From Aureimonas frigidaquae (lineage in GTDB: Bacteria; Pseudomonadota; Alphaproteobacteria; Rhizobiales; Rhizobiaceae), in the NCBI RefSeq assembly GCF_001463905.1, contig NZ_BBWR01000019.1, positions 1-64,000 of the forward strand: DNA of 64,000 nucleotides, given 5' to 3'. The notes under the pieces were generated by a model, which searched no databases, was not told the origin of the DNA, and saw only the letters and a list, made by a program, of their open reading frames with translations. The translations under genes were made by a program, and so were the position numbers. Positions 41,311 through 45,141 of the stretch are shown here, piece by piece. Within the stretch, counting starts at the first letter, position 1, and every line of letters begins with the position of its first letter.

Positions 41311-42672
<1,362 letters not shown>

Positions 42673-42695
42673 TCAACGGTGCGATGACGGTTCGG

Positions 42696-42723
42696 AAAGC
42701 GGGCTTCGGCCCGCTTTTCTTTT
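42696..42723 (+). terminator. Rho-independent terminator after aspartate aminotransferase
   Basis: Perfect 9-bp stem AAAGCGGGC/GCCCGCTTT with a UUCG tetraloop, followed by TCTTTT. Textbook terminator for the plus-strand gene. Confidence 0.9.
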
Positions 42724-42829: not shown

Positions 42830-42942
42830 AAAAAAAAGCCGGGTTCGAAGAACCCGGCCAATCGAAGGGCCTACATAGGCAAACCCTTGGGAGGAAACGG
42901 TCGGGCGGAGGAATGGGAGGAGGTATTCCCCGGCCCCGACTG
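42830..42942 (-). ncRNA. Predicted anti-Shine-Dalgarno small RNA (resembles alpha-r14/NfeR1 'cuckoo' type)
   Basis: On the minus strand, from a promoter at 42949-42977, a transcript of about 113 nt can form three elements. First, a GUCGGG/CCCGAC stem with an inner GGAAU/AUUCC hairpin that displays CCUCCUCCC (complement of 42915-42923) in its loop. Second, a hairpin AAGGG...CCCUU with GCCU/AGGC inside, preceded by unpaired UUUCCUCCC (complement of 42889-42897). Third, a terminator with 9-bp stem GCCGGGUUC/GAACCCGGC and eight U. Repeated CCUCC loops facing ribosome-binding sites are the hallmark of rhizobial alpha-r14 and Rhodobacter CcsR-type RNAs. It lies 130 bp past lsrB on the same strand. 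Confidence 0.65.
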
Positions 42943-42948
42943 ATGGCA

Positions 42949-42977
42949 AGAATAACACGCCCCGATTGGTCCACCAG
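42949..42977 (-). promoter_or_regulatory. Promoter of the small RNA
   Basis: Minus-strand -10 TATTCT (42954-42949) with a weak -35-like CTGGTG (42977-42972) at 17-bp spacing, placing the start near 42942. A weak -35 fits an activator-dependent promoter. Confidence 0.5.
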
Positions 42978-42987
42978 AGCGGTCTGC

Positions 42988-43016
42988 GCATGCCAGTCAT
43001 GCGTTTTAAGCATGAC
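42988..43016. promoter_or_regulatory. LysR-type dyad upstream of the small RNA
   Basis: GTCATGC (42996-43002) and GCATGAC (43010-43016) are perfect 7-bp inverted arms with a 7-bp spacer, and contain T-N11-A. The centre (43006) is about 64 bp upstream of the predicted start, where LysR activators normally have their recognition site. A further GCATG (42988-42992), paired with CATGC (42998-43002), could be the activation site. Confidence 0.6.
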
Positions 43017-43073: not shown

Positions 43074-43970
43074 CTAGAAGGCCCAGGTCCGCGCCTTGGC
43101 GATGAGGAAGTCCCGGAAGACCTTCAGCTTGGCGGAGTCGCGCAACTGCTCCGGGTAGCAGAGATAGGTATCGAAAGCCGGCATCTCCATTTCCGGCAGG
43201 ACCTGCACGAGCTTGGAGTCCTTGTCGACCATGTAGTCGGGCAAGAGGGCCACCCCGATGCCGCGCTCGATCGCCGACTTGACCGCCATGAGATTGTTGA
43301 TCTGCAGGATCGCACTGCGCGACATGCCGTCGGGCAAGCCGACCGTTTCCAGCGTGTTCAGGTTGCGCAGATAGGGCGGGGCCGGCTCGCCGAAGGTGAT
43401 GAGCCGATGCCGGTCCAGATCGGCGATGGTCTCGGGCCGTCCGTAGCGTTGCAGGTAGCTCGGCGCGGCATAGACATGCAGATGCACGGTGAAGAGCCGG
43501 CGCTGGATCAGGTCGGGCTGCTGGGGCTGGCGCAGGCGGATGGCGCAATCGGCCTTCCGCATGGTCAGGTCGATCTCCTCGTTGTCGAAGACCAGTTGCA
43601 GCTCCAACTCCGGGTAGAGTTCGAGAAATTCCTGGGCACGGTGGGTGAGCCAGCCGGAACCGAGGCCCACCGTCGTCGTGACGCGCAGCTTGCCGCTCGG
43701 CTTTTCCTTCGTCTCGGTGAGCTGCATGCGCACGGTTTCGAGCTGCTTGAGCACGTCCGTGGCGGTGCGAAACAGGATTTCGCCCTGTTCGGACAGGACC
43801 AGGCCACGGGCGTGGCGATGGAAGAGCGGGGCTCCGATTTCCTGCTCGAGTGCGGCGACCTGGCGGCTGATGGCCGACTGGCTGAGATTGAGCGCGTTGG
43901 CGGCATGGGTGAACGAGCCGGCCTCCGCCGCCGCGTGGAAGATGCGCAGCTTGTCCCAGTCCAGCGCCAT
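43074..43970 (-). CDS. lsrB: LysR-family regulator LsrB/VtlR
   Basis: A 298-residue LysR regulator with WDKLRIFHAAAEAGSFTHAA and NLSQSAISRQVAALEQEIG as the winged helix, and an effector domain with LRVTTTVGLGSGWLTHRAQ, ADCAIRLRQPQQPDLIQRRL and FDTYLCYPEQ. These stretches match what I know of LsrB of Sinorhizobium and VtlR of Brucella, regulators of redox and lipopolysaccharide genes, small RNAs and DUF1127 proteins. The neighbouring trxB, 45 bp upstream on the same strand, is the conserved context. The predicted anti-SD small RNA downstream carries a LysR-type operator, so it is the prime target. Confidence 0.9.
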   Translation of the reverse strand: MALDWDKLRIFHAAAEAGSFTHAANALNLSQSAISRQVAALEQEIGAPLFHRHARGLVLSEQGEILFRTATDVLKQLETVRMQLTETKEKPSGKLRVTTTVGLGSGWLTHRAQEFLELYPELELQLVFDNEEIDLTMRKADCAIRLRQPQQPDLIQRRLFTVHLHVYAAPSYLQRYGRPETIADLDRHRLITFGEPAPPYLRNLNTLETVGLPDGMSRSAILQINNLMAVKSAIERGIGVALLPDYMVDKDSKLVQVLPEMEMPAFDTYLCYPEQLRDSAKLKVFRDFLIAKARTWAF

Positions 43971-44015: not shown

Positions 44016-44993
44016 TTATTCCGCGGCCTGCCGTTCGCCTGTCGCCGGCGCGCGTGCGGCCAGCCAGCGCTCCGCTTCCAGCGCGGCCATGCAGCCGAGC
44101 CCTGCGGCCGTGACGGCCTGGCGGTAGACATCGTCCGCCACGTCGCCCGCCGCGAAGACGCCCTCGATCGAGGTTTGCGTCGTGCCGGGCTCGACCCAGA
44201 GATATCCTCCCTGTTTCATGCGCAGCTGGCCGGCGAAGAGCTCCGTGGCCGGCGCATGGCCGATGGCCACGAAGACACCGTCCGTCGGGTGCTCCGTCAC
44301 GGCGCCGCTCGTGCGGTCGCGCAGCCGGACCCCGGTGACCTGGCGCATGGGATGCGTCATGCCGACGACATCGGCGATCTCCGCATTCCAGATGACGGAG
44401 ACGTTTTCCCGCGCGAGAAGACGGTCCTGCATGATGCGCTCCGCCCGGAAGGCATCGCGCCGATGGACGACCGTAACGCTGCGGGCGATGTGCGACAGAT
44501 AGAGGGCCTCCTCCACGGCCGTGTTGCCGCCGCCCACCACCACGACATCCTTGCCACGATAGAAGAAGCCGTCGCAGGTCGCGCAGGCCGAAACGCCGAA
44601 GCCCTGGAACTCTGCTTCGCTGTCGAGGCCGAGCCAGCGGGCCTGTGCCCCGGTGGCGATGACCAGCGCATCGGCGGTGTAGACGGCCCCGCCATCGCCG
44701 CGCAGGCGGAAGGGGCGCACCGAAAGATCGGCCTCCACGATCAGGTCGGCCACCATCTCGGTGCCCATCGCCAGGGCCTGGGCCTTCATCTGTTCCATGA
44801 GCCAGGGGCCCTGGATCGGATCGGCGAAGCCGGGATAGTTCTCGACATCGGAGGTGATGGTCAGCTGGCCACCCTCCTGCAGCCCGGCGACCATGAGCGG
44901 CTTCATCATGGCGCGCGCGGCGTAGATCGCCGCCGTGTAGCCGGCCGGGCCGGACCCGATGATCAGAATCTCCGCGTGACGCTCGGCAGTCAT
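44016..44993 (-). CDS. trxB: Thioredoxin-disulfide reductase
   Basis: A 325-residue flavoenzyme that reduces thioredoxin with NADPH. FAD site LIIGSGPAGYTAAIYAARA, redox centre CATC (Cys137 and Cys140), NADPH loop VVVVGGGNTAVEEALYLS, and the C-terminal FAD motif GVFAAGDVADDVYRQAVTAA are all intact. Start ATG at 44993; the frame remains open upstream without similarity. trxB-lsrB form a probable operon. Confidence 0.97.
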   Translation of the reverse strand: MTAERHAEILIIGSGPAGYTAAIYAARAMMKPLMVAGLQEGGQLTITSDVENYPGFADPIQGPWLMEQMKAQALAMGTEMVADLIVEADLSVRPFRLRGDGGAVYTADALVIATGAQARWLGLDSEAEFQGFGVSACATCDGFFYRGKDVVVVGGGNTAVEEALYLSHIARSVTVVHRRDAFRAERIMQDRLLARENVSVIWNAEIADVVGMTHPMRQVTGVRLRDRTSGAVTEHPTDGVFVAIGHAPATELFAGQLRMKQGGYLWVEPGTTQTSIEGVFAAGDVADDVYRQAVTAAGLGCMAALEAERWLAARAPATGERQAAE

Positions 44994-45141
44994 GGCTTGA
45001 TACTTTCGATGGTCGGTGCTGCGTCGCAGGTGGCCCCTGCATCGTGCTCCTTCAATAGAGGACGCCTGCGGTGGAGACAACAAGGGTTGCACGTTGGCCA
45101 CAGTCCTGTCCGCGTCCCGCCTCCGGCGGCCGGGCCGGCGG

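Follow-up and report, generated by a model that had tools for sequence, protein, structure and literature searches.

Genomic context and architecture of the sRNA locus

The window (i.e. the whole 64,000-nt stretch of Aureimonas frigidaquae DNA analysed here, part of a 4.1 Mb genome in 30 contigs, designated G000) carries on its minus strand a thioredoxin reductase gene (trxB, 44019-45098, start codon unsettled; TIGR01292 385.1 bits, cut-off 343.45), a LysR-type regulator gene (lsrB, 43074-43970, presumed activator) and, 132 nt after lsrB, a predicted AbcR-like sRNA gene of ~112 nt (42830-42941; assigned from covariance model R2, covariation and fold z). On its other side the sRNA faces a convergent aspartate-transaminase-like gene (41401-42672, plus strand, likely start ~41470; NF004769 556 bits, below the cut-off of 617). 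A separate terminator-like site at 42694-42719 (plus strand) would serve the transaminase gene, so that each of the convergent genes may have a terminator of its own. The name lsrB was given because of the trxB-lsrB-sRNA gene order and of the orthologues, as the NCBIfam matches of its product were of LysR type, with all listed ones under cut-off and none named LsrB. The protein (two cysteines, at positions 142 and 271) is 95-96% identical to those of Aureimonas altamirensis and A. fodinaquatilis, and in a tree of 69 LsrB proteins it joins two A. altamirensis rows (support 100/90).

The minus-strand RNA (42830-42942) folds at -50.1 kcal/mol, as compared to -36.0 +/- 3.15 kcal/mol for 200 dinucleotide shuffles (z -4.47), none of which folded as well (0/200). 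Its first hairpin (SL1, 42900-42940; from fold, stems and the covariation of helices 1 and 2) exposes a 10-nt loop, ACCUCCUCCC (42924-42915), inside which lies a first anti-Shine-Dalgarno seed (aSD1, CUCCUCCC, 42922-42915). SL1 is followed by a single-stranded linker with a variant second seed (aSD2, UUUCCUCCC, 42889-42897; from fold, model R2 and comparison with AbcR), the CCUCCC of which has a mean unpaired probability of 0.88, by a second hairpin predicted from the fold (SL2, AAGGGUUUGCC...GGCCCUU, 42865-42888), and by an intrinsic terminator (42830-42859; from terminator scan, fold and helix 4 of the covariation set) with a 10-bp stem at 42859-42837 and U8. An earlier note on this DNA had described a minus-strand RNA with CCUCC in a hairpin loop, a second unpaired anti-SD copy and a terminator with eight U, and on all three counts the fold, the loop and the terminator stem agree with it; as a prediction, an RNA that offers two accessible CCUCCC copies for anti-Shine-Dalgarno pairing is confirmed at the locus. 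For the 5' end, 42941 is a better prediction than 42942, because independent AbcR-type models begin there and the LsrB site (discussed below) then falls at -61. A -10-like TTATTCT was read from the sequence at 42949-42955 (minus strand), with a -35 region of no clear consensus, and a consensus scan upstream of the sRNA gave no sigma-70 promoter.

Conservation and covariation within Aurantimonadaceae

The same RNA was found shortly after lsrB in 24 Aurantimonadaceae sequences (the window and 23 others). When each was folded whole and singly, SL1, SL2 and the terminator appeared in order in 22 of them (including L034, which partly pairs aSD2 and leaves CCUCCC unpaired at 0.55); the remaining two differed by another fold of the 5' part (L046) or by an SL2 merged with the terminator (L041), and CCUCC fell in the SL1 loop in 24/24 when the 5' segment was folded alone. 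A covariance model built from these 24 lsrB-linked sequences (R1) recovered, at 60 bits or more, exactly one copy in 20 of the 21 genus genomes and none in G011, and other listed matches in these 21 genomes stayed under 27 bits.

Among 46 named Aurantimonadaceae loci (L031-L076; L036 and L060 stop a short way past lsrB) 26 had no copy near lsrB, R1 search included. Genomes were searched for 18 of those 26, and 17 of them hold one copy elsewhere (R1, 55.5-99.5 bits); in the genome of Aureimonas pseudogalii (L047, G077) R1 found no copy, possibly owing to loss or to an assembly gap. In 11 of the 17 the sRNA still has the transaminase gene as a neighbour (1.5-kb flank), and therefore it is lsrB that moved in these. 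Such a parting of lsrB from the sRNA was seen in Aurantimonas, Jiella, Fulvimarina and others (L144-L160).

Covariation was assessed in 41 family sequences (window included, 39 distinct). Changes on both sides occur at 11 of 21 pairs (including all 9 pairs of helices 1 and 2, in SL1), 0/500 shuffles reached any of the five measures used, and standard pairs fill 95.1% of the cells, with 33-56% paired in slid controls; since the 41-row alignment was fitted to the model, its counts are biased in that direction, for which the shuffles and slides serve as guard. By computation the structure is thus conserved, and the check proposed in the earlier note, i.e. whether CCUCC loops and stems are kept in related genomes, came out in its favour, with strong covariation. 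Helix 3 of the R1 RNAalifold structure (aSD2 with AGGG, columns 55-58/64-67) showed no both-sided change in the 39 distinct rows and was dropped; AAGGG pairs with the 3' arm of SL2 in most single-sequence folds. In a further genome (L284, G041:C13:73782-75440) two tandem CCUCC RNAs, both with an LsrB-like site of their own upstream, follow lsrB.

Probably a diverged AbcR rather than an alpha-r14 RNA

At gathering score Rfam returned nothing for the window: the RNA obtained 24.9 bits (E 0.0039) with alpha-r15 (RF02345, cut-off 40) and 24.1 bits (E 0.012) with alpha-r14 (RF02344, cut-off 58.8), and a stricter Rfam search of the own genome listed no alpha-r15 match. A second covariance model, R2, was built from 22 lsrB-linked AbcR-type RNAs of other genera and includes no Aurantimonad sequence. 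Its single significant match in the 64 kb is 42830-42941 (minus strand, 56.4 bits, E 1.8e-11; the E-values of R1 and R2 are rough). On 33 of the 41 Aurantimonad loci R2 gave 21-57 bits, and some alpha-r14 loci reached 31.6, so that the score alone separates the window RNA, but not its weakest relatives. In the reciprocal direction, R1 scored AbcR-type loci at up to 52.8 bits (E down to 6.7e-11), and its E-values on alpha-r14 loci were 0.004 or worse. Because the locus gives the only significant R2 match in the 64 kb and a canonical alpha-r14/NfeR1 RNA lies elsewhere in the same genome (G000:C18:195574-195694, 91.2 bits, the strongest of its kind there), we consider that the sRNA is, with high probability, a diverged AbcR orthologue, namely an Aurantimonadaceae version with an altered second seed.

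The earlier note had instead assigned the RNA to the alpha-r14 (NfeR1) type and had proposed the Rfam model as a check. Membership of that family at the lsrB locus would be in keeping with the shared CCUCCUCCC loop, with the 24.1 bits noted above, with the overlap of R2 scores and with the LsrB activation of NfeR1 itself (PMC10746234; here and below, citations refer to part of the text of the papers named). Against it, the score falls far short of 58.8, the genome possesses its 91.2-bit alpha-r14 RNA elsewhere, and the two reciprocal models already point away from this family. Furthermore, NfeR1 repeats one anti-SD motif three times (PMC8844928), and in the fetched alpha-r14 loci (including the one on C18) CCUCC occurs in three places, the terminator loop among them (read from sequence), in contrast to the single CCUCCUCCC loop and single UUUCCUCCC linker of the window RNA, where only one hairpin loop displays the motif. 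We thus hold the alpha-r14 assignment to be very improbable. What the window RNA has in common with NfeR1 is the CCUCCUCCC anti-SD seed and a promoter, LsrB-dependent by prediction, with a motif at ~-72, and the genome contains both NfeR1 and AbcR-like kinds. Other Rfam models with matches below cut-off (MicF, SorX and SorY over the RNA; ylbH, on the opposite strand; anti-hemB; beta-proteobacterial toxic sRNA) were set aside as chance or shared-shape matches, and a look-up by name found no entry called CcsR in the Rfam list at E <= 10 over the window.

The AbcR reading accords with the arrangement seen outside the family: in 31 of 34 named non-Aurantimonadaceae loci lsrB is followed within ~740 nt by an RNA with a CTCCTCCC-type SL1 and GTTCCCCTCTGGAG, and no such AbcR-type RNA was found in the stretch examined after lsrB in L103, L104 and L107. 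Four AbcR-type loci gave 38.7 bits (L023) or passed the alpha-r15 cut-off of 40 (L080, L090, L097), and L128, from a different genus, attained 100.9 and 93.9 bits with alpha-r15. In S. meliloti the stretch from SMc01226 to lsrB contains AbcR1 and AbcR2 (PMC8844928, PMC3712013), which makes linkage to lsrB ancestral and not surprising in itself; of the earlier view that the linkage is notable, the likely connection to LsrB stands and the surprise does not. The alpha-r15 RNAs are described as always multicopy in Rhizobiaceae and Brucellaceae (PMC3712013). As the window RNA departs from them in Rfam score, aSD2 sequence and copy number, it is filed as an AbcR variant and not as canonical alpha-r15. 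Compared with AbcR1/AbcR2 (alpha-r15; Sinorhizobium, Agrobacterium, Brucella), it shares the lsrB-adjacent locus, an LsrB site at ~-61, an SL1 with CUCCUCCC loop, a single-stranded anti-SD linker, SL2, the terminator and (by prediction in the window genome) solute-binding-protein targets, but differs in the sequences of aSD2 (UUUCCUCCC versus UUCCCCUC) and SL2, in the one strong copy per genome and in scoring below the Rfam cut-off.

A single change of the second seed

The published AbcR seeds are aSD1 CUCCUCCC and aSD2 UUCCCCUC, the latter within an ultraconserved stretch (PMC8844928). In the window RNA aSD1 is unchanged, and UUUCCUCCC stands where AbcR has UUCCCCUC, between SL1 and SL2; this form is present in 40 of the 41 aligned sequences, with AUUCCUCCC in L074. 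Among 20 further lsrB-downstream stretches from the order and family (aSD2 assignable in only nine), TTCCCCTC is exact in six (L279, L280, L281, L285, L287 and L288), because of which the classic UUCCCCUC form is likely the ancestor, and other forms occur in L282, L297 and L298. On the LsrB tree (computed without 12 named rows, where the RNA was not found or the genome not searched) a single aSD2 change accounts for the 38 derived and 31 classic rows (support 100/100).

A hybrid origin, in which the 5' half and terminator of AbcR were combined with a second seed converted from another CCUCCC RNA, would draw on the fact that aSD2 now has the CCUCCC of aSD1 and of alpha-r14, and on a third form, GTTCCCTCCGAAGG, after lsrB in another genome of the same family (L298, G032:C33:44102-44800). 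The flanks of UUUCCUCCC (GUUU...AAGGG) are, by eye, unlike alpha-r14 loops, and a few point changes are enough to yield it, so such a conversion seems very improbable to us, as does its corollary, that AbcR and NfeR1 targeting were merged in one RNA.

A conserved LsrB site upstream of the sRNA

Upstream of the sRNA, published motifs delimit a putative LsrB/VtlR site (42990-43013, minus strand), in which ATGC-N7-GCAT (-72) overlaps GCAT-N3-TG-N3-T (-61 to -49; exact, as GCATGACTGGCAT, at 43002-42990). The LsrB motif of AbcR1 is GCAT-N3-TG-N3-T at -61 to -49 (PMC8844928) and that of NfeR1 TGCA-N6-GCAT at -72 to -57 (PMC10746234). Scanning the 41 sequences (starts -66 to -55) found an exact -61 element in 22, and 38 had it with at most one mismatch, all of these at -59 to -63; it is missing in L039, L041 and L050. 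A tighter form, GCATNNCWGNCAT, is exact in 29/41 (0.000 expected from mononucleotide shuffles), although derived from the same sequences. The site is hence conserved, and all 17 copies away from lsrB retain it within one mismatch of the published motif, which argues that the connection is carried by the site and not by linkage, and the tie between LsrB and AbcR seems to persist once the genes have parted. On the plus strand (42988-43001) the LsrB-type site also reads GCATGCCAGTCATG, as a palindrome would.

The RNA might alternatively be the 3' UTR and terminator of lsrB, perhaps processed from its mRNA, and no independent RNA. It is on the same strand, 132 nt after lsrB, and its terminator is the only strong one found on that strand in this region (a weaker candidate lies at 42981-42958), so that lsrB transcripts may end there. 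Yet a conserved site at a fixed upstream distance and the presence of the RNA away from lsrB in 17 relatives render this explanation very improbable. For activation by LsrB there are precedents: AbcR1 of S. meliloti is activated by LsrB, which responds to oxidation through cysteines (PMC8844928), and LsrB/VtlR-AbcR pairs are described in S. meliloti, Agrobacterium and Brucella (PMC8844928, PMC7486931, PMC12595884). By analogy, we infer that LsrB activates the window sRNA.

A scan of the own genome for GCATNNCWGNCATG gave 13 matches at 10 distinct sites (reversed pattern, 0). Three of the 10 precede CCUCC RNAs: the window sRNA and two short alpha-r14-like RNAs, L131 (1501-1640, approximately G000:C2:106247-106386) and L134 (1501-1640, approximately G000:C5:169518-169657), with Rfam scores of 41.5 and 38.8 bits (below cut-off) and with sites ~61-62 nt before an RNA start judged by eye. 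Next to the window sRNA, these two are candidate members of a group of RNAs driven by LsrB; in Agrobacterium, too, an additional sRNA preceded by an LsrB/VtlR site is known, the VtlR-activated VrsA (PMC7486931), to which they are likened by their sites. One of the other sites, a palindromic LsrB-type one (L138/L139 centre, G000:C17:35536-35550), has a TetR-like gene (by eye) on one side and a 48-aa ORF on the other, and could act in either direction; the ORF was considered as DUF1127-like, a label dropped since Pfam gave only DUF3563 at 19.3 bits (cut-off 26.9). The remaining six are coding-looking or at a gene start (by eye).

Predicted targets

The complement of UCCUCCCA, common to both seeds, is TGGGAGGA, and TGGGAGGA-N(1-12)-ATG has 47 matches in the own genome versus 2 for the reversed pattern. 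ORFs of 100 aa or more begin at 39 of the 47. The rest, eight in number, are short, are duplicates or lie antisense to CCUCC RNAs (one of them, C18:195590, was not fetched). According to Pfam, 23 of the 39 ORFs encode periplasmic solute-binding proteins (10 Peripla_BP_4, 8 TctC and five others; the 10 and 8 assigned to genes via BLAST groups, and the fragment L185 not counted). Complementary ribosome-binding sites are thus numerous before solute-binding-protein genes, the target class of AbcR, and this class emerged without functional input. The longer leader pairing was with aSD2 in 16 of the 23 (up to 13 nt), with aSD1 in 3 and tied in 4, a comparison weakened by A-rich leaders, which favour aSD2 by composition. 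The site enrichment is not specific to the window RNA, because aSD1 and NfeR1-type seeds can pair with GGGAGGA sites as well. Judging from these sequences, the window RNA would probably silence genes of nutrient uptake by masking their ribosome-binding sites.

The controls for this target test are weak. They comprised AAAGGAGG (15 matches, five opening ORFs of at least 100 aa, no Pfam scan), CAGGAGGA (82 matches, 7 such ORFs at the 30 loci read) and AAGGAGAA (24 matches, 7 such ORFs, L261 unscored); of the 14 ORFs from the last two patterns only L229 and L270 were scanned with Pfam, and both are solute-binding proteins. BLASTP with the 23 against 153 background ORFs (a greedy choice by length, wrong frames included) retrieved one solute-binding protein and missed L229, and the resulting enrichment (p 2.6e-18) is only indicative on account of this miss and of the flaws of the background.

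Co-evolution of seed and sites was addressed in 61 genomes with the composition-matched patterns GGGAGGAAN{1,12}ATG and GAGGGGAAN{1,12}ATG. No genome-wide change of target sites to match the new seed was seen: the GGGAGGAA/GAGGGGAA ratio before ATG did not differ between 21 Aureimonas genomes and 16 from other genera of the same family (medians 2.38 and 2.65, p 0.43; the presence of classic AbcR was not checked in all 16, and 24 order-level genomes of unsettled RNA type were excluded). Per Mb, GGGAGGAA sites number 11.0 in the genus and 10.4 in other genera of the family, and GAGGGGAA sites 4.8 and 4.3, respectively.

Proposed mechanism and implications

In Hyphomicrobiales, both plant symbionts and pathogens, AbcR acts as a major post-transcriptional brake on the uptake of nutrients. 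A full-text literature search (with most subscription papers outside its scope) found no AbcR report for Aurantimonas or Aureimonas, and for Aureimonas and small RNA its only match concerned Paracoccus. The present assignment would extend AbcR to Aurantimonadaceae, the Rfam model missing AbcR in the window genome. Moreover, a family that rewrote the second AbcR seed but left the first one and the promoter logic intact would constitute a natural experiment on the retargeting of a hub sRNA.

In the mechanism that we propose, LsrB (encoded next door and probably redox-responsive) would bind ATGC-N7-GCAT-N3-TG-N3-T at -72 to -49 and activate an RNA of ~112 nt that ends at its own terminator. The two CCUCCC seeds (in the SL1 loop and in the linker) would then pair with GGGAGGA-type ribosome-binding sites and block the translation of many mRNAs, chiefly those for periplasmic solute-binding proteins; in Aurantimonadaceae, the second seed would have gone from the ancestral UUCCCCUC to UUUCCUCCC. 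Transcription of the RNA, binding of LsrB to the upstream DNA and the repression of translation are what we infer from these features, as would be any role for Hfq and any control by redox state or nutrients. It is conceivable, at somewhat less than an even chance, that the LsrB output of Aurantimonadaceae has converged on a single ribosome-binding-site code. If true, AbcR would have lost its distinct second seed, both seeds now reading GGGAGGA; LsrB would drive L131 and L134 too, and so command several RNAs of one specificity; and the transporter mRNAs that UUCCCCUC used to recognise would either have escaped or have come under control again.
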